Shown piece after piece: positions 39,227 through 49,029 of a stretch of DNA of 64,000 nucleotides. How positions within the stretch are numbered: position 1 is the first letter of the stretch; each line of letters starts with the position of its first letter. The translations under genes and the position numbers were made by a program. The notes under the pieces are model-generated. The model worked only from the letters and a program-made list of their open reading frames with translations, did no database searches and had not been told where the DNA came from. Source of the DNA: Solibacteraceae bacterium (lineage in GTDB: Bacteria; Acidobacteriota; Terriglobia; Bryobacterales; Bryobacteraceae); assembly GCA_021324015.1 (NCBI GenBank), contig JAJPJX010000129.1, forward strand, positions 1 to 64,000. Direction: 5' to 3'.

Positions 39227-39266
39227 CGCGTTTCTTTTCAGTACTCAACCCGGGGAGTGGGTGAAA

Positions 39267-40943: not shown

Positions 40944-41621
40944 CTATAATTGCGCTTCGGCTTCGCGTTCCAGGCTGGCCCGGTCGAGGATCGTGACCTT
41001 GCGGTCCTCGATCTTGATAAGGCCCTCGGCGCGGAAGCGGGCGAGGTTGCGCGACACCACTTCCCGCACGGTTCCCAGACGCGAGGCCAGTTCCTGGTGG
41101 GTGAGGGGCAGTTCGAACTGGTTGCCGTGGGCCTGGCGCCCTGCGTCTACCAGCAGGCGCGCCAGTCTTTGGGTGACGCTGCCGAAGGTCATGCTCTCGA
41201 CTACCGACACCAGGTGCCGCAAGCGCCGCCCGACCACGGCCAGAACCTTCAGCGCCAGGTCCGGATATTGTCGGCAGACCTGGTAAAAGTCGGCCTTATG
41301 GATGAAGTAGGCGAGCACGGGATCGATGGCGCGCACCGAGGCCGGATAGGGTCCGCCGTCGAACAGCGGGAGCTCGGCTACCGTGGAGGGCGCTGTCTCG
41401 AGCGCCAGCATCATCTCCCGCCCGGAGGCGGAGGTCTTAAAGATCTTGACGGTGCCTTCGGCGATCAGGAAAATCCCCGCGCACGGCTCGCCCTCCCAGA
41501 ACAGAATCTCCTCGGCGGTGTAGCGCTTCTCGATGGCGCGCTGTGCCAGTGCCTGCACCTCGGCCTCGCCGAGACCGGAAAACAGGGGGATTTGCGTCAG
41601 GACTTCGGTCTTGTTGGGCAA
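40944..41621 (-). CDS. Crp/Fnr-family transcription regulator
   Basis: A 225-residue protein: cyclic-nucleotide-type beta-roll (~10-115; L-F-S-G-L-G-E-A-E-V, E-G-E-P-C-A-G-I-F-L-I-A-E-G), dimerisation helix, and a winged helix-turn-helix (L-T-H-Q-E-L-A-S-R-L-G-T-V-R-E-V-V-S-R-N-L). The recognition helix has R-E-V-V-S-R, matching the Crp arginine/glutamate/arginine set that reads GTGA. The N-terminal cysteine cluster of Fnr is absent, so oxygen sensing through an Fe-S cluster is unlikely; the effector is unknown. It follows the tetra-module cytochrome gene after 22 bp and is probably the last gene of the cytochrome operon. Confidence 0.9.
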   Translation of the reverse strand: MPNKTEVLTQIPLFSGLGEAEVQALAQRAIEKRYTAEEILFWEGEPCAGIFLIAEGTVKIFKTSASGREMMLALETAPSTVAELPLFDGGPYPASVRAIDPVLAYFIHKADFYQVCRQYPDLALKVLAVVGRRLRHLVSVVESMTFGSVTQRLARLLVDAGRQAHGNQFELPLTHQELASRLGTVREVVSRNLARFRAEGLIKIEDRKVTILDRASLEREAEAQL

Positions 41622-41643: not shown

Positions 41644-42753
41644 TTACTGCAATGCGTTCAGATAGGCAATCAGGTCGGACATTTGCCGCGCGTCGAACTG
41701 CGGCCAGGGCAGGTTCTTGGCCTGCATTTGCGCCAGCATGCCGGGGCCGTGGTCCCACAGGGCCGCCACCATGGAGATGGTGGAGAAGGAACCCTTCTTC
41801 GCCGCCAGGTTTGGAGCCCCGCTGGAGGGATTGTTGTGGCAGGTGGCGCAATTCTTCTCCGTGAAGACCCGCTTGCCGCGCGTTGCGCTGCCCCCTCCGC
41901 GGAAGAACTGCCGCACCCAAAGGTAGCTGACGATCTTGCGCATTTCGTCCTGCTCGAGCGCGGGGGGCGCCGGCTTCATTCTGGGCGCGTGGTTCCACAT
42001 ATCGACGGCAATGTCCGTCAGGGTGAGGTCGCGCAGGCGATTTTCCAGAGCCAGTCTTCCCACGTGGCACTTGATGCAGCCCTTGGATTGAAACAAGGCG
42101 TCGCCTCCCTGGGCTGGAGGGTACTCGAAGCCGGCCGGCAGGTTGCGTGTCTCCGGCAGGTTCCGGAGATAGACCAGGATGTCCGTCAGTTCCTGGCTGG
42201 TAAGCTGCTGCCAGGGAATCTTTTTCTGGGCAAAGGCCGCGCGCATGTTGGCGGCGTGGTTCCACATGGCCTGGACCAGGATGATGGGGTGCCCCAACGC
42301 CGTCCACTGGGCCACGGGCTTGGCGCCGGATTCCTTGGGCGTGGCGATGCCGTGGCATTCCGCGCAGTGATGCGCGGAGAACAGTTGCTTGCCGCGCCCG
42401 GCATCCCCCGGCTTGTCGAAAAAGCGCGTGGAATAGAAATAGGCAAACAGGTCCGCCGCGGCCTGCTCGCTCAACTGCCTCTTTTCCACTCCCTGGCTGC
42501 GCATGGCCGACCACATGGTGGGCGCGTGGTTCCACATCGTGCTGGCCAGCACCGCCGGGGTGAAGTCCCGGTCCACCCGCCGGCCGAGATCCGGGGCCAC
42601 TTTGCCGCCCTGCCCATTGATGCTGTGGCACTGGACGCAGGATTCGCTGCGGAACAGTTCCCGGCCGCGCTGCGAGTCTCCGGCCACTTCCTCGGCGGCA
42701 TGGGCACCCAGGATCAGCAGACTACCGAGCATCGCGAGTCGAATCGTGCGCAT
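41644..42753 (-). CDS. Four-module c-type cytochrome (4 CxxCH)
   Basis: A 369-residue periplasmic protein with signal peptide (A-M-L-G-S-L-L-I-L-G-A-H-A). It is built from four tandem class I-like monoheme modules with heme motifs C-V-Q-C-H, C-A-E-C-H, C-I-K-C-H and C-A-T-C-H. After each heme motif comes a repeated helix M-W-N-H-A-x-x-M (third copy M-W-N-H-A-P-R-M, fourth changed to L-W-D-H-G-P-G-M), whose methionine or histidine could be the distal heme ligand. Each module ends in a D-x-x-A/V-Y-L-like helix. It follows the mtrB-like gene after 9 bp. It is a good candidate for the periplasmic electron shuttle feeding the MtrA-like protein. Confidence 0.85.
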   Translation of the reverse strand: MRTIRLAMLGSLLILGAHAAEEVAGDSQRGRELFRSESCVQCHSINGQGGKVAPDLGRRVDRDFTPAVLASTMWNHAPTMWSAMRSQGVEKRQLSEQAAADLFAYFYSTRFFDKPGDAGRGKQLFSAHHCAECHGIATPKESGAKPVAQWTALGHPIILVQAMWNHAANMRAAFAQKKIPWQQLTSQELTDILVYLRNLPETRNLPAGFEYPPAQGGDALFQSKGCIKCHVGRLALENRLRDLTLTDIAVDMWNHAPRMKPAPPALEQDEMRKIVSYLWVRQFFRGGGSATRGKRVFTEKNCATCHNNPSSGAPNLAAKKGSFSTISMVAALWDHGPGMLAQMQAKNLPWPQFDARQMSDLIAYLNALQ

Positions 42754-42762
42754 GGGGGTCTC

Positions 42763-44823
42763 CTATTTGGTCAGCCTCAGGCCGGTCATGAAGATGTGGG
42801 CGCGAAAGCCCTCATACAGATAGTATGCTTCGCCAAACCCGTAATAGCGCCACTCGGCGGTCCAGAAAAGGTTCTTGCACAGCGGGAGAGCCAGTTTGGC
42901 CAACGGCTGATAATAGCTCGTGGGCCGGCTCCCCGAGGAAACCATGTAGCTGCCCCCCAGCGAGATTTTGGGGATCATGCCGGCATATGCCGGCAGCGCG
43001 AAGTCCGCCAGCACCGTGCCGGCGTGCGAGTTGTCGCGGTAGAACGAGCTCTCGGTGGCGAAATACGGACCCGCCAGGTAGTTGATATCGGAACGCAGGG
43101 TGGAACGGCTGTACTCGGCGAGCACCGTGACGCGCTTGCCGCCCGCCGGCGTCCACAGGGCGGAAACCGAGTTCTGCCGGCTCAGGAAGTCGTAGTGGAT
43201 CCCCTGGGACGGGTTCTGGTTGTTCAGGATGGAGAAGTCCGCCGAAAGAGCCAGCGTGCCGAAAGCCTGGTAGCGCGCCCGGGCGCGCGCGCGCTGGTAA
43301 TCGTACAGGCTGATGCGGAAGTAGTCCCGATCGCTCGAGGCGCCCTCGAAGTCCACGTTGAAGGAGAATTTCTGGCCGCTGTGGAAGGAAGCTCCCGCCA
43401 GACCTACCTGGCGGCGCAGTTCGCCGGATTCCAGGCCTCCGGCATTCGGGCTCAGCACGGGCGCCAGGTCCTGCCCGTCACCCCAGACATAGCGGTGCCC
43501 GCCGCGCAGTGTCAGCCGGGAGGTCACATCCACCAGCACATCCACCTGCTGCTGGTTGTAATTCATCACCAGGCGGCTTGAGAGCGGCGCGACTTGCGAC
43601 AAGCTGGCTGAATTGGGCAGCAGGAACTGTTCCGCCAACTGGCCGATGCCGGCGCTGTGCAGCCGGTCAGTGGACCAGGATTCGATGACCCGCACACGGC
43701 GCAAGGGACGCACCTCGAAGCCCAGGCTGCCGGCGGTGTGCGGCATCTTGGCCGTCGCGGTAGCCAGATCCTGCTGCCCGTTATAGAGCAGCAGGCTGCT
43801 CAGCAGCGCAAAATTCCCGGTGTTGTACTGATTGTAATGAACATCGTTGTTGGGCTGGCTGTACAGGAACTGGCCATAGACATCCATCCAGGCGAAGGGG
43901 TTGGCCGTCACCAGCACCTTGCTGTAAGTCCCGTCTCCGCGAATCCCGTAGGCCTGCAACAGGCTGCCCAGGTACAACTGCTGGCCGGCGTAGGGCGTGG
44001 TTCGGTTGCCGTAGTTCTGCGTGAGGTTGTTGTAGACCTGCTGATCGTCCTTAAAGGTCGTGCCGCCCTCTTCCAGGGTGGCATGGAAGCGCCGCAGTTC
44101 CACCCGTACGCCGCCCCGATAGGTGTTGGTCTCATCGCGCAGGAGGTCCGGCACCGGGTACTCGTTGGTGGCGTCGAGCACGAAGGTGGTGACCCCGTGG
44201 CCAGATCCGGCGTCACGGCTATACGCCAGGTACGGGGTGATCCAGTTGCCCGGAAGCAGGTCCAGTTCGAAATCGCTCATCTTCCGGCGCAAATCGTAGG
44301 AGCGCTCGTTGAGAAAGATGCCCTTGCTGGTGTCCAGCAGGGGATCGGCGAAGGATGGCAGGTAGTTGAAGTAAGCCAGGTTGCGGTAATCGAAGTTGAA
44401 GTCGTACAGGCTGCGCTTGCGGGCGGAGATGTGCGCCGTGGTGTAGGGATCGTCGCCCCAGTTGTAGCCGCGCACGTCCAGGCGGTCGAACAGGCGGTGT
44501 TTAGGATCCTGCACCGTGAAATCCAGGCCCGTGAGCTTGGGGCCTTCGCCCAAATTCACGATGCTGCGATACGCATCCAGGCTGCCGCCCACGTTGCTCA
44601 CCCAGCGGTATCCGAAATCCACACTGCCGGAGATCACCGGCTCGCCGGCGGGTACTGGAGAAGCGGCCTGCTGCTCGGACGGGGCGGCCGGCTTCGCCTC
44701 GGCGGGCGCCGCCTTCTCCTCCGGCTTCGGCTGCGCCGCCGGAGCGGGCTGCGCCTCCGGCTTGGGAGCGGCCTGCTGCCCCACGAGCGGCAGAGAAAGG
44801 AAGAGGACCAGTAGGGCTCTCAT
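42763..44823 (-). CDS. MtrB/PioB-like outer-membrane barrel (porin of a porin-cytochrome conduit)
   Basis: About 686 residues; start at the ATG at 44823, which overlaps the stop of the decaheme gene as ATGA and opens a signal peptide (A-L-L-V-L-F-L-S-L-P-L-V-G-Q). A Pro/Ala/Glu/Lys-rich linker of ~55 residues follows, then a long region of alternating aromatic beta-strands (e.g. Y-R-S-I-V-N-L-G-E-G-P, F-N-F-D-Y-R-N-L-A-Y-F), ending in the strand F-M-T-G-L-R-L-T-K. I identify it as the barrel sheath mainly from its place directly after the MtrA-like gene and its strand pattern; it lacks the N-terminal C-x-x-C of Shewanella MtrB. It would hold the MtrA-like cytochrome inside the outer membrane. 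Confidence 0.7.
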   Translation of the reverse strand: MRALLVLFLSLPLVGQQAAPKPEAQPAPAAQPKPEEKAAPAEAKPAAPSEQQAASPVPAGEPVISGSVDFGYRWVSNVGGSLDAYRSIVNLGEGPKLTGLDFTVQDPKHRLFDRLDVRGYNWGDDPYTTAHISARKRSLYDFNFDYRNLAYFNYLPSFADPLLDTSKGIFLNERSYDLRRKMSDFELDLLPGNWITPYLAYSRDAGSGHGVTTFVLDATNEYPVPDLLRDETNTYRGGVRVELRRFHATLEEGGTTFKDDQQVYNNLTQNYGNRTTPYAGQQLYLGSLLQAYGIRGDGTYSKVLVTANPFAWMDVYGQFLYSQPNNDVHYNQYNTGNFALLSSLLLYNGQQDLATATAKMPHTAGSLGFEVRPLRRVRVIESWSTDRLHSAGIGQLAEQFLLPNSASLSQVAPLSSRLVMNYNQQQVDVLVDVTSRLTLRGGHRYVWGDGQDLAPVLSPNAGGLESGELRRQVGLAGASFHSGQKFSFNVDFEGASSDRDYFRISLYDYQRARARARYQAFGTLALSADFSILNNQNPSQGIHYDFLSRQNSVSALWTPAGGKRVTVLAEYSRSTLRSDINYLAGPYFATESSFYRDNSHAGTVLADFALPAYAGMIPKISLGGSYMVSSGSRPTSYYQPLAKLALPLCKNLFWTAEWRYYGFGEAYYLYEGFRAHIFMTGLRLTK

Positions 44824-45854
44824 TTCAGGAACATCCGATCCACGTATGATCCGTGGACTTTCTGGTGGCAGATGGTGCAGTTGCGGAACCGGGGAGACCG
44901 CAGGTCGTGGAAGGCGGGCGGCACCACCCCGAGAACCGTGCCCGCCCCCGCCGTCGATAGCGGCAGGTTGGCGTGGCATTCCAGGCAGACGTAGCGGACT
45001 TCCTGGCGTGCAAGCATCCGCGGATTGGCCGACCCGTGCGGTTCATGGCAGGTCATGCATCCTTCGAACCGCACCGGCGCGTGCTCGTACGTGAAGGGAC
45101 CGCGCTTATCTCCGTGGCATTTGAAGCAGCCCGGTTCGTTGCCCGCGAAATATTGCATCTGTCCGGGGCGGAAGCCGCCGTGCGGATTGTGGCAGTCCAC
45201 GCACGACATGGCGCCTTCCGGCAGGCGGTGCTTGTACGGCAACTGGAAGCGGACCCACTGGCTGGTGTGGCAGGAGGCGCACAGTTCGTTGATGGCTGGC
45301 GCCTTGCGCGCCACCAGGCCGTTCGGACCGTTGCGATGAATGGCGTGGCAGGCGGTGCAGCTCACCTGGTTCTTGGCATGGCTGCTCTGGAGCCGTCCAA
45401 CGTGTGTAGGCTGGTTCAGGTGGCACTTCAGGCAGGTGCGGTCGGTTTGCGCCGGGGGCAGCTTTTCGGGATTCCGGATATCCGCAGCCGACGCGGACTC
45501 GGCGTGCTTGCTGCCCGGACCGTGGCAGGACTCGCAGGCATTGTTCTCAAACCCGCGCCTCTTATCGGTCTGCACTACCCAGTGGGGGTTTTTCTGAAAG
45601 GCTTTGAAGATGTCTTCGTGGCACGCCTGACAGGTTTCCGAGCCGACGTAAGTAGCCGGCTTGTTTTCCGCCGGAGGCGCCTCGGCCGGCTTGGCCTCCG
45701 CCGGCTTGCTAGCCTGGGCTTGGGCGCCGTACAGGGCAGCGCTGGAAAAGAGAGCCGCCACCAGGACGACAGCCGGGAGAAGCGCCACCGCGCTGCGGCG
45801 GCGCTTCCGAAGAGCGGCGGGAACCGGCTTGGTCGCCGGTAGCGGCCATAGCAT
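44820..45854 (-). CDS. MtrA/DmsE-like decaheme c-type cytochrome
   Basis: About 344 residues; start at the ATG at 45854 (GGAG nine bases upstream). An Arg-rich then hydrophobic signal peptide (~17-47) is followed by a Lys/Ala/Pro/Glu-rich linker. Ten CxxCH motifs then run from residue 75 to near 330: CQACH, CESCH, CLKCH, CTACH, CASCH, CVDCH, CFKCH, CMTCH, CLECH, CTICH. Ten hemes in ~260 residues, with the H-N-P-H-G and H-E-P-H-G spacers, match the DmsE/MtrA/PioA family. Such proteins form the heme wire that crosses the outer membrane inside the MtrB barrel. Its gene sits 48 bp after the mtrC-like gene and overlaps the barrel gene by 4 bp. Confidence 0.9.
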   Translation of the reverse strand: MLWPLPATKPVPAALRKRRRSAVALLPAVVLVAALFSSAALYGAQAQASKPAEAKPAEAPPAENKPATYVGSETCQACHEDIFKAFQKNPHWVVQTDKRRGFENNACESCHGPGSKHAESASAADIRNPEKLPPAQTDRTCLKCHLNQPTHVGRLQSSHAKNQVSCTACHAIHRNGPNGLVARKAPAINELCASCHTSQWVRFQLPYKHRLPEGAMSCVDCHNPHGGFRPGQMQYFAGNEPGCFKCHGDKRGPFTYEHAPVRFEGCMTCHEPHGSANPRMLARQEVRYVCLECHANLPLSTAGAGTVLGVVPPAFHDLRSPRFRNCTICHQKVHGSYVDRMFLK

Positions 45855-45902
45855 AAAGTGCGTCTCCGTAAACCAGTAGTCTAGCAACCGAATGATCCGG
45901 AA

Positions 45903-48044
45903 CTACCTCGCGTGCACTTGATTTACGGAGAACTGCGCATCCGATCCGTGGCATACTTCGCAGCTCTCGCCCAACTGTTGCGTGGTCTGGGCCAGGGCAT
46001 GGGAAGCGGCAGCGGTACTGACATGGCAGCCGATGCAAGCGTTGGTGGTCGGGCCTACCGGGTTCAACAACCCCTGCGGGCTGGTCACCTGGTTCAGTCC
46101 GGGCTGCAGCGGCAACTGCTCGGAGCCGTTCACGTGGCACATGCTGCAATTGCGCCGGTCGCCGGGCTGGCCGGTGGGGCTGAAGGCGGGGTAGCGGACT
46201 TCGGTGAAGTCGTTCACGCTGCCGCCGAAGCCGATCACCGTGAAGGAGCCGCCATCCTCCAGCATTTGCTCTCCGGTGTGGATGCGGTGAATCATATACG
46301 CGAAATCCACGGATTGCGGGGGCATGGCCCTCTGCGCGGGATCCGTGGCGGTCGGGCGCCGGGCTTTGTCCGTTTCGCTGGCGTTGTGGCAAAGCACGCA
46401 CATCTCGATCTGGTTACGATTCTCGCCGTGCAGCGACAGGAACGCGTGGCACTTGTTGCAGTTGTTGACGTCTACTACCTTGCGCCGCGGCGTTACGGGA
46501 GTGCCGTCCACCGAGAAGTAGGAAACCTTGTTGATGGCCCCGTACTCGGTGCTCATCTGTTTGGTGGTACCAGGCAGCAGCGTCAGGCCGCGCCGGGCTT
46601 CAATGCCGATGGCGAAGGTGCCTTTGGCATCGGCCGGGATGGCGTGCTGGAAGGTGTAGGTGCAGGTCCCGTCCGAACTGCACTGCCCGGTCTTGGTGGG
46701 ATCTTCGGAGACATAGCCGCCGGTGGTTACGTCGCTGCCGAAGTTGGTGTAGCCGTAATCCTTGGTCGGGCCGGCCAGCACCAGCGCCACCCGGTTGGGC
46801 GTGGTGGTCATGCTGCCCAGCGGGATGCCCGCGCCGCTGTTGTCGCGCAGGGTGAAGGTGACGGTCGGCTTGTTGCCGGCGGTGCCGTTATCCACTTTGA
46901 CGATATCGACATTCACGCCCGGACGGGTGGCGGACTGCTCCGGAATGGTGTGCGCGCCCTTGATGGAGGCGTCAAACTCCAACTCGCCCTGCGGGATGTG
47001 GCAATTGGCGCACTGGTCGTCGCTGATTTGCGGCAGGTTCACGTGGTTCTCGCCAGTGGCGAAGTTCACGTTGTCGTGACAGGCGCCGCAGGCCGCCCGG
47101 CTGGGCTTGTTGAGATAGTTCGCCGCCTGCGTGCTGGCTCCCTGCACGTGGCAGACTTCGCAGCGCCGCACATCGGCCGGAAAGACTACCGTGGACCAGT
47201 CGCTGACCGATTGCTGGAACCCGATAATCTGGTACTTGCCGCCGGCCTGTACGCTGGGTAGAGAGGAGCCGGCGTGGATCTTGTGGATCATGACGGGAAA
47301 ATTCACCGTGTTGCCGGTATCCGGGTCGGTGGTCTGCGGGGTATGGCACAGGATGCAGAGTTCCACGCTGCGCCGCGAGCCGCCATGGAAAGCCAGTTGA
47401 TCGTGGCAGGCGTTGCAGGCCGGAGTCCGGACCACGTCGCGCACCTGAGTGACCGCCGCGCCGTTGGGCACGAAGGTCAGCACGTCATCGTCATACTGGA
47501 TGCCCATATCGAATTCGCTGAGGTCGCGCGATCCATACACCCCGATGCTATGGGTGGCGCTGGCGTCGAAGCCACTGGGCGCCTTGGTCTTGAAGGTGTA
47601 GGTGTAAACGCCGTCGGCCGTTTTGGTGAAGCTGCCGCCGGAGTCGGCGCCCGCCTGCACGGCCGTGACATTCGTGATGGGGCTGGTCTGCGTGCGCGTG
47701 GTGTAGGCCGTGTACTGCGTCTGCCCTTTAGGAATCGTGGCGGCGATGAAACTCACCGACACCGCGCCGGGTGTGGTGATTCCATCCTTGTCCAAAGGCA
47801 ACCCTTTGGGATCCGTCAACTTCACCGAGGCGGTGATGGTGCCGTCCGCCGCGATGGCGGCGGATTGCAACTTAATCATCAGGCCCGGCCGCACGAAGTT
47901 GACCGTGTTGGGATCGGCGTAGTACGCCTTGTCGTGAACCGTGAAAGCAGGCTTGGGAGCACTGACCAGCGCGACGGATCCGACCAGCACCGTCACCGCC
48001 AATGCCCACCGAGCAACTGCGAAAACCGAAGATGGCATCCGCAT
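45903..48044 (-). CDS. OmcA/MtrC-family decaheme outer-membrane cytochrome
   Basis: About 713 residues; start taken at the ATG at 48044 (48038 also possible). The N-terminal signal peptide ends near A-L-V-S-A. Four-domain layout as in MtrC/OmcA: beta domain, five CxxCH (CNACH, CILCH, CEVCH, CGACH, CANCH; ~209-345), second beta domain, five more (CNKCH, CVLCH, CSMCH, CIGCH, CEVCH; ~528-700). The repeated I-H-x-I-H-x-G signatures before the third heme of each half (M-I-H-K-I-H-A-G and M-I-H-R-I-H-T-G) are typical. Unlike the Shewanella proteins it has no lipobox cysteine. It should be the cell-surface terminal reductase for minerals or other extracellular acceptors, and is the first gene of the operon. 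Confidence 0.9.
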   Translation of the reverse strand: MRMPSSVFAVARWALAVTVLVGSVALVSAPKPAFTVHDKAYYADPNTVNFVRPGLMIKLQSAAIAADGTITASVKLTDPKGLPLDKDGITTPGAVSVSFIAATIPKGQTQYTAYTTRTQTSPITNVTAVQAGADSGGSFTKTADGVYTYTFKTKAPSGFDASATHSIGVYGSRDLSEFDMGIQYDDDVLTFVPNGAAVTQVRDVVRTPACNACHDQLAFHGGSRRSVELCILCHTPQTTDPDTGNTVNFPVMIHKIHAGSSLPSVQAGGKYQIIGFQQSVSDWSTVVFPADVRRCEVCHVQGASTQAANYLNKPSRAACGACHDNVNFATGENHVNLPQISDDQCANCHIPQGELEFDASIKGAHTIPEQSATRPGVNVDIVKVDNGTAGNKPTVTFTLRDNSGAGIPLGSMTTTPNRVALVLAGPTKDYGYTNFGSDVTTGGYVSEDPTKTGQCSSDGTCTYTFQHAIPADAKGTFAIGIEARRGLTLLPGTTKQMSTEYGAINKVSYFSVDGTPVTPRRKVVDVNNCNKCHAFLSLHGENRNQIEMCVLCHNASETDKARRPTATDPAQRAMPPQSVDFAYMIHRIHTGEQMLEDGGSFTVIGFGGSVNDFTEVRYPAFSPTGQPGDRRNCSMCHVNGSEQLPLQPGLNQVTSPQGLLNPVGPTTNACIGCHVSTAAASHALAQTTQQLGESCEVCHGSDAQFSVNQVHAR

Positions 48045-48279
48045 AACCTTTTCTTCTCCAATGTTGCCAGTCATCCCCACCCAGGCGCCAGCGAGAACCT
48101 CCTCGCCCGTCCGAGTGTCCTGCCACTATCCGAGCCAAGGCTAGTAGCATTCATTGGCCCAAAATCAGCGTCGGATTTCGAGCTTTGTCAACGCCTTTGT
48201 TATCAATATGCTGAGAAATTCATCAGTCATGTAGGGAAATTCTACACCAGTGGGGGATTGGGTGAAATAGCGGAGGAGT

Positions 48280-49029
48280 ATGGGTGAAAGCCCACTGATG
48301 CATCTCACGCCGGGCGACCTGGCGCCGCTGGCGGCGGTCTTGGCGGTGGCCACGGCTGCCTACGTGTGGCGGGAGCGGCGGCGCAGACGCACTCTGGTGC
48401 GGCCAGCGTATCCCGACATCGAAGTGGCGCAGGTCTGGGAAAACTGGCTCGCCGGCATCCGGGAAACTCCTGATCTGGTGCTGGCTCCACCGGGGACCGA
48501 TGACCTCGCGGAGCCTCTGGGGCCGCGGGCCCTGGCCGGGCTGGTGGAGACCGGGTGCCGTTGTGCGAGCGCCGAACATCCCCGGATCGCGTTGCGACAG
48601 GCGATTCTCGAAGCGGCCACCCTGGGCTTACACCTGGAAGTTCTGCTGGAGGCGGACGAGACGGAGCGCCGGTCGCTGCTCAAAGGCTACCAGGAAGGCA
48701 TGGAGCCCTGGCTGCGGGAGTCCTTCACCCTGGCCACCGTGCACTGGCTAGTCTTGCGGCAATACGGGCAGTGGAAGTACGACGATGCCGCTCCGGACGA
48801 CTGGTTCCACCGCTTCTTCCGCGTTGCACGCCCGTATATTCGGGAGAAGATGCGGGTGGCGCGGGAGTACCTGCTGGAGGGCGGCACAGGTTCCCCGCGG
48901 CTGATCGAGATCTACGACCAGTTGCTAACCGAACTGGCAGACCTCTCCCTACGGGCCGCTCCCAAGCGCCGGTTCGCGCGCCCCGATTTGCCCTTGGACG
49001 CGCGCCGCCTGGAAGAAGATCCGGGCTGA
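48280..49029 (+). CDS. Membrane-anchored protein of unknown function
   Basis: A 249-residue protein, not recognised. It has one N-terminal hydrophobic helix (L-A-P-L-A-A-V-L-A-V-A-T-A-A-Y-V-W) followed directly by a strongly basic stretch (R-E-R-R-R-R-R-T), so it is probably anchored with the rest in the cytoplasm. The remainder is mostly helical and charged, with Trp/Phe-rich W-K-Y-D-D-A-A-P-D-D-W-F-H-R-F-F near residue 165, and no known catalytic motif. GGAGG lies just upstream of the ATG at 48280. It is divergent from the cytochrome operon with 235 bp between, so a functional tie is possible but unproven. Confidence 0.6.
   Translation: MGESPLMHLTPGDLAPLAAVLAVATAAYVWRERRRRRTLVRPAYPDIEVAQVWENWLAGIRETPDLVLAPPGTDDLAEPLGPRALAGLVETGCRCASAEHPRIALRQAILEAATLGLHLEVLLEADETERRSLLKGYQEGMEPWLRESFTLATVHWLVLRQYGQWKYDDAAPDDWFHRFFRVARPYIREKMRVAREYLLEGGTGSPRLIEIYDQLLTELADLSLRAAPKRRFARPDLPLDARRLEEDPG

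Follow-up and report, generated by a model that had tools for sequence, protein, structure and literature searches.

A probable MtrCAB-type electron conduit in a Bryobacterales-like acidobacterium, with ImcH-type cytochromes as candidate inner-membrane partners and a direct repeat upstream

The window analysed here, bases 1-64000 of contig 59 (C59) in the 8.2 Mb genome of a Solibacteraceae bacterium (214 contigs), carries on its minus strand a run of five genes, from 48044 (or 48080) to 40944, whose products resemble the parts of an MtrCAB extracellular electron transfer conduit, accompanied by a further cytochrome and a transcription regulator. A preliminary description of this DNA had listed two decaheme genes with 10 CxxCH motifs each and a barrel candidate, in the order mtrC-mtrA-barrel with overlapping or closely spaced frames, followed by a gene with 4 CxxCH and a Crp gene; all of this was recovered, and the strand, which it did not state, is the minus strand. 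The mtrA and barrel genes overlap by 4 bases and the remaining gaps are 48 (15 with an earlier TTG start of MtrA), 9 and 22 bases; the five genes therefore likely form one operon. The features of the locus are:

45903..48044, minus strand: OmcA/MtrC-family decaheme cytochrome, 10 CxxCH (TIGR03507, PF22113, PDB MtrF 3pmq, hydropathy)
44820..45854, minus strand: MtrA/DmsE-family decaheme cytochrome, 10 CxxCH (TIGR03508, PDB 6r2q chain A)
42763..44823, minus strand: MtrB-like outer-membrane beta-barrel without heme (predicted model, fold match to MtrB 6r2q_B)
41644..42753, minus strand: secreted four-module class-I-type cytochrome c, 4 CxxCH (Cytochrom_C, Cytochrome_CBB3, module alignment, motif counts in 41 sequences)
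40944..41621, minus strand: Crp/Fnr-family transcription regulator, final gene of the run (PF00027, PF13545, homologs near the conduit)
48259..48289, minus strand: direct repeat TTTCACCCA-N13-TTTCACCCA, candidate operator, about 215 bases before the mtrC ATG (pair searches in the genome and in relatives)

The two decaheme proteins fall clearly within their families. The MtrC-like protein, whose open reading frame (ORF) is open from a GTG at 48080 and has an ATG at 48044, scored 578.7 bits against NCBIfam TIGR03507 (cut-off 209.3), matched PF22113 in Pfam and, among PDB entries, matched MtrF (3pmq, E 4.9e-26) as well as OmcA and MtrC structures. Hydropathy gives it a single hydrophobic N-terminal segment. 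Shewanella MtrC is a lipoprotein; here there is no lipobox and no cysteine in the N-terminal segment, so a lipoprotein of the Shewanella type is not indicated, lipidation being a matter outside TIGR03507. Among the listed relatives' MtrC proteins a single loose lipobox pattern match (L100) was judged to be chance. The MtrA-like protein, with possible starts at TTG 45887 and ATG 45854, scored 267.7 bits against TIGR03508 (cut-off 192.2), and residues 35-347 of its 355 matched chain A of PDB 6r2q (E 7.7e-38). That chain carries the name cystathionine beta-synthase in the table, which looks like a labelling error because the entry is titled Structure of the Mtr complex. Models of the NrfH and NrfB type gave the MtrA-like protein 41.1 and 30.4 bits, far below their cut-offs of 134.2 and 184. 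Searches with hidden Markov models of three families had been proposed as a check on the preliminary description; the MtrA/DmsE and OmcA/MtrC models thus returned the expected proteins, and the MtrB/PioB model did not.

The barrel was placed by structure. Its sequence has no Pfam match and one meaningless NCBIfam match, and a search of the genome with the MtrB/PioB profile PF11854 at E <= 10 reached two other places and not this gene; neither the single sequence nor a 22-row profile linked it to MtrB among PDB sequences. The structure predicted from 61 sequences (60 of 75 barrels plus that of the window) has a predicted local distance difference test score (pLDDT) of 86 and 28 strands, with a low-confidence N-terminal stretch. 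Foldseek ranked MtrB (6r2q_B) first (E 7.3e-15, template modelling (TM) score 0.65), and a second aligner did the same (Z 26.1, root-mean-square deviation 3.6 over 550 residues), the next match being a TonB-dependent receptor at Z 16.8. Because MtrB ranks top in both structure searches with a wide margin, the predicted barrel is MtrB-like by fold, without membership in the Pfam family. The barrel candidate, whose failure to model would have spoken against the preliminary description, thus models as an outer-membrane barrel. The other outcome that would have counted against it, decaheme proteins falling with periplasmic nitrite- or tetrathionate-type cytochromes instead of MtrA and MtrC, did not occur either, given the family scores above.

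Each of the four modules of the fourth gene product has one CxxCH, followed 27 to 35 residues later by a WxHxxxM motif on a helix. Across 41 sequences (40 of 42 tetraheme proteins plus that of the window) the histidine of this motif is kept in 164 of 164 module cells and the methionine in 158, five of the six losses falling in module 3; His/His or His/Met axial ligation of the hemes is possible. The module profiles are class-I-like (Cytochrom_C and Cytochrome_CBB3 in Pfam), and a fold search gave no match at E <= 0.001, all matches lying above E 0.01 with class-I cytochromes at the top. A second four-module cytochrome, 57% identical, is encoded on contig 201 (G000:C201:4286-5383, L043) beside DUF362 and dCache-domain genes, with no conduit genes within the 14 kb examined.

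To place the locus among its relatives, we scanned a species-genome collection with the barrel alignment and retained the best 80 of the 122 relatives found; gene labels in these loci come from a simple ORF picker, and starts and small genes are uncertain. More than 3.5 kb precede the barrel in 64 loci; MtrA lies on the same strand within 4.5 kb in all of these, and MtrC in 58 of them (54 upstream, 4 only downstream). Of the 69 loci that continue for more than 1.4 kb past the barrel, 42 have a tetraheme gene following it, which in L099 is only a one-heme piece. The mtrC-mtrA-barrel order is thus conserved, and the scores of both decaheme families over their cut-offs, together with the conservation of barrel and gene order in relatives, argue that the locus is not a product of chance. 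Across 61 genomes, our own included, the barrel found matches at E <= 1e-80 in 32, weaker ones in 19 and none in 10. The ten highest-ranking named relatives of the barrel are 55-59% identical and belong to metagenome-assembled genomes labelled Terriglobia, Bryobacterales, Acidobacteria or Acidobacteriaceae; Candidatus Solibacter appears shortly below them. Family scores, predicted barrel fold and Bryobacterales-type relatives together support the core of the preliminary description, an extracellular electron transfer conduit in a Solibacter-like acidobacterium.

Decaheme MtrA/MtrC-type sequences of Solibacter usitatus and Terriglobus were reported earlier (PMC3669403, as available in part), and a conduit type of this kind has a published name. 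In the available part of Baker et al. 2022 (PMC8805035), Group 5 MtrCAB is confined to Acidobacteriia, Bryobacterales or unclassified, with five Acidobacteriia hits in the survey; in every member the gene of a predicted periplasmic tetraheme cytochrome directly follows mtrB, and no member has a putative inner-membrane quinone oxidoreductase nearby or mtrC duplicates. The operon appears by sequence and predicted fold to be a member of this type, with the barrel counted as mtrB by fold only: it shares the mtrC-mtrA-mtrB order, the tetraheme gene directly after mtrB, a Bryobacterales-like host and the lack of a quinone oxidoreductase beside this copy. The four-heme cytochrome, which the preliminary description set outside the classical mtrCAB set, is the published mark of Group 5. 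Our loci depart from the published description, as far as its available part goes, in that the tetraheme gene is seen in 42 of 69, an ImcH-type gene flanks 25 of 80, and tandem mtrC genes occur in L107, L128 and L141. No word beginning with crp occurs in the main text of that paper. Like the Shewanella MtrCAB complex (PDB 6r2q), the locus combines the MtrA family, the MtrC family, an MtrB fold and the same gene order; unlike it, it has a barrel without detectable sequence similarity to MtrB, an MtrC without lipobox and a four-module class-I-type cytochrome in the operon.

The most likely inner-membrane source of electrons is encoded elsewhere in the genome. A search with PF03264 at E <= 0.001 gave two matches, at C59:67987-68244 and C61:88870-89133, both over cut-off. 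The statement of the preliminary description that no CymA-like quinol oxidase is seen therefore holds for the window by PF03264, but a match of this family, ImcH-type, stands 4 kb past the window end. CymA itself, a small tetraheme NapC/NirT protein in Shewanella, has no counterpart by PF03264 in this genome, both matches being ImcH-type; CctA and FccA were not searched. The two proteins, of 479 and 487 residues, have hydrophobic N-terminal stretches and one CX3CH with five CxxCH; the gene on C59 (67129-68568) lies on the same contig as the operon, 19 kb from mtrC.

We classed these proteins as ImcH-type by published marks, which in the available part of Zhong and Shi 2018 (PMC6295460) are three helices, an atypical CX3CH and a NapC-like part; a table there counts 19 known homologs in Acidobacteria. 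A CX3CH with five CxxCH is present in all 26 ImcH-type proteins compared (24 from the 25 loci mentioned above, the cut gene of L085 being left out, and the two of our genome), and plain hydropathy gives three N-terminal peaks in 19 of them, including that of C61, and two in 7, including that of C59. By these marks this genome's proteins resemble Geobacter ImcH in the CX3CH, the NapC-like part and hydrophobic N-terminal stretches, and differ from it in having five CxxCH against seven, homologs ranging from 5 to 9 in the available part of PMC6295460. Beside the ImcH-type gene of C61 lies a frame of 689 residues with nine CxxCH and a PF01292 b561-type domain (47 bits, residues 456-634); plain hydropathy shows four helices in this domain, where six are usual. 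In the same source Geobacter CbcL combines nine CxxCH with a b-type membrane domain behind them, and to judge by its sequence the C61 protein fits this design.

The connection of these cytochromes with the conduit rests on relatives, because our own genes are 19 kb away or on another contig. Counting only frames with a CxxCH and more than 100 bits, we found an ImcH-type gene in the flanks of 25 of the 80 loci. In 6 of these it is encoded on the opposite strand; the other 19 have it downstream on the same strand, 15 within 1.5 kb of the barrel end and 4 behind a relative of the CbcL-type gene. An ImcH-type quinol oxidase is therefore our candidate for the missing inner-membrane partner of the conduit. 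Such adjacency of an imcH-type gene to an mtrAB-type conduit looks new, since the available part of PMC6295460 found no mtrAB or mtoAB beside imcH and that of PMC8805035 no quinone oxidoreductase near Group 5; no work naming it was found in titles and abstract openings, with partial coverage of the literature. Together with the upstream repeat and the occasional occurrence of the Crp gene, both described below, it is what the present analysis adds to the known Group 5.

In one relative the parts stand in a single open frame. In G044 (L064 8811-12305) a frame of 1164 residues with 27 CxxCH and one CX3CH joins an ImcH-type part (residues 8-456), which shares 49% identity with the C59 protein, a 12-heme part with twelve CxxCH and an MtrA part (898-1164); in G062 the ImcH-type and 12-heme parts form one frame and the MtrA match begins 70 bases further on.

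Several side observations concern the surroundings of these genes. In L088, L095, L101, L103, L107, L116, L123 and L134 the ImcH-type gene is followed by a gene for a small protein (101-131 residues) with one heme. The one-heme protein of 132 residues on C61, which neither Pfam nor NCBIfam recognises, had its single match in the flank comparison with such a protein in L149. About 25 kb from the operon, C59:72608-76569 (L165 10608-14569) encodes a bc-type complex (Rieske protein, cytochrome b, nine-heme cytochrome), behind which lies a five-heme gene resembling cytochrome c554.

Taken together, we favour an outward MtrCAB-type conduit fed from the quinol pool through ImcH- and CbcL-type cytochromes and the tetraheme carrier, with a probability of roughly 0.75. 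Under this reading, ImcH-type and CbcL-type cytochromes of the inner membrane, encoded elsewhere in the genome, would oxidise quinol; the four-module cytochrome would act as periplasmic carrier from the inner membrane to MtrA; MtrA, assembled inside the MtrB-like barrel, would take electrons across the outer membrane; and MtrC at the surface would pass them on to an acceptor outside the cell, for instance Fe(III) or humic substances. Outward flow seems likelier than inward on the sequence evidence because ImcH has so far been implicated only in quinol oxidation in the available part of PMC6295460. Acidobacteria are abundant in many soils, and their role in iron and humic redox cycling has been argued mostly from genes; a likely quinol oxidase for the conduit would close the gap remaining for Group 5 after the 2022 survey and provides a defined, testable gene set.

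A number of observations weigh against this reading. No ImcH-type gene was seen in the flanks of 55 of the 80 loci, some of which are short, nor a tetraheme gene in 27 of 69; our own ImcH-type gene stands 19 kb from the operon and the CbcL-type gene on another contig. CbcL-type proteins give no direction, being implicated in both in the available part of PMC6295460. The full fused frame occurs in one of 81 genomes searched, G044 alone, and because it keeps a hydrophobic, signal-like segment before the MtrA part, the fusion may be an assembly fault or a lost stop. The lipobox of Shewanella MtrC is missing, and Foldseek also matches the barrel to TonB-dependent receptors (E from 7.6e-12), albeit at TM 0.37-0.47 against 0.65 for MtrB.

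The alternative that survives best, though we think it unlikely, is an inward conduit as proposed for MtoAB and PioAB, in which external Fe(II) or another donor would be oxidised at MtrC and electrons would pass through the tetraheme class-I-type cytochrome to the quinone pool or an oxidase. As a monoheme cytochrome, MtoD belongs to class I, and the tetraheme modules here match the Cytochrom_C and CBB3 domains; the MtrA-barrel core is likewise common to this locus and the MtoAB/PioAB conduits of Fe(II) oxidation. In the available parts of the two papers, mtoD homologs accompany mtrCAB in betaproteobacterial Group 4 (PMC8805035) and CbcL/MtoC homologs occur in Fe(II) oxidisers (PMC6295460). Unlike MtoAB and PioAB, however, this locus has a surface MtrC, and the genes that flank 25 of the 80 loci are of the ImcH type, tied so far only to quinol oxidation.

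A DmsEF-like extracellular terminal reductase module, with MtrA and the barrel serving a soluble acceptor, is very improbable: TIGR03508 is named after DmsE and therefore does not separate DmsE from MtrA, but Pfam and NCBIfam find no molybdoenzyme among the five operon genes, and an OmcA/MtrC decaheme accompanies the MtrA-barrel pair in 58 of the 64 loci with enough flank. Least credible of all is that the decahemes are periplasmic nitrite- or tetrathionate-type cytochromes with an unrelated barrel, which the weak NrfH- and NrfB-type scores might suggest but which is already contradicted by those scores falling short of cut-offs that the MtrA and MtrC models pass for their own families, and by the MtrB-like barrel fold.

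Returning to the outward conduit fed from quinol, we entertain a more specific version of it, tentatively and at slightly less than even odds: a Bryobacterales hybrid chain in which a Geobacter-type entry (ImcH, in part CbcL) would pass electrons to the four-domain class-I-type cytochrome, or in some relatives to an ImcH-fused 12-heme connector, and thence to a Shewanella-type MtrCAB under its own direct-repeat operator. We found no description of such an ImcH/CbcL-MtrCAB chain in Bryobacterales, the literature having been covered in part.

The repeat consists of TTTCACCCA twice on the coding strand before mtrC, 22 bases apart (48259-48289). The strict pair TTTCACCCA-N13-TTTCACCCA occurs once in the whole 8.2 Mb genome. 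A search of 61 genomes finds it at four places in three of them, and in every case an mtrC starts some 200 bases further on. For a broader comparison we used 60 of 81 upstream regions (400 bases each, the window included), the rest lacking either 400 bases or a plus-strand mtrC. Relaxed pairs, defined by at most one mismatch per copy and a spacing of 19-24 bases, were found in 12 of the 60 (11 of 59 relatives), in none of the 60 on the other strand and in none of 11,751 random segments of the same loci. The motif TTCACCCA occurs 33 times on the coding strand in 21 of these regions and never on the other strand, about one occurrence being expected. Clustering at a local score above 100 leaves 18 groups among the 21 regions, so close common descent explains little of this excess, though weaker relatedness remains.

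The relaxed-pair figures are not independent of the discovery, since the same loci served both to find the repeat and to test it; the strict-pair searches of our own genome and of the 61 genomes provide a check that is partly separate. Two counts speak against the repeat being general: 39 of the 60 upstream regions lack TTCACCCA, and strict pairs are confined to 3 of the 61 genomes, of which 32 have a strong barrel match. We propose that the direct repeat may be an operator controlling the conduit operon; it offers a handle for finding the inducing condition and the regulator of the conduit. A lone TTTCACCCA lies at 39258-39266 of the window on the minus strand, about 84 bases before the gene at 39174-38104, which we take to be radical-SAM-like; the chance expectation is 0.25 per window.

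The regulator at the end of the operon was described at first as the operon's own. It does adjoin the conduit here, but a homolog (55-77% identity) stands within 3 kb behind the conduit in only 11 of the 80 loci; among the 52 that extend more than 5 kb past the barrel, the count is 9. In 5 of the 11 it comes directly after the barrel, and a tetraheme gene is absent. The regulator has matches at E <= 1e-40 in 30 of 61 related genomes, our own included, among them G007, G008, G059 and G060, which have no barrel match. On these counts the Crp gene is a recurrent, not a fixed, neighbour of the conduit. Crp/Fnr sites are palindromes, and the Crp protein as binder of the TTTCACCCA site, a direct repeat, was not supported. 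None of seven palindrome patterns sought upstream of mtrC was clearly enriched in loci with a Crp gene; TGA-N6-TCA differed most, being present in 3 of the 10 regions with a Crp gene (the window included) and in 5 of the other 50. Ten of the 12 relaxed-pair regions have no Crp gene near the conduit, some flanks being short.

Some further copies and variants of the conduit genes were seen. At G000:C196:5953-8790 (L042) a second MtrA accompanies a very different second barrel, 23% identical to the first and with a weak GSU2204-family score, and there is no MtrC on this 19 kb contig; ten loci fetched for weak barrel matches in relatives (L071-L080) likewise pair MtrA with a barrel without MtrC. 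Bryobacterales-type barrels under the labels Nevskia soli (L101, 54% identity) and Candidatus Sumerlaeaceae (L144, 42%) are likelier to reflect wrong binning or labelling than transfer. Besides the three loci with tandem mtrC named above, G001:C50 (L178) has tandem copies beside the conduit, and in L111 split frames probably account for the doubled mtrC and mtrA.

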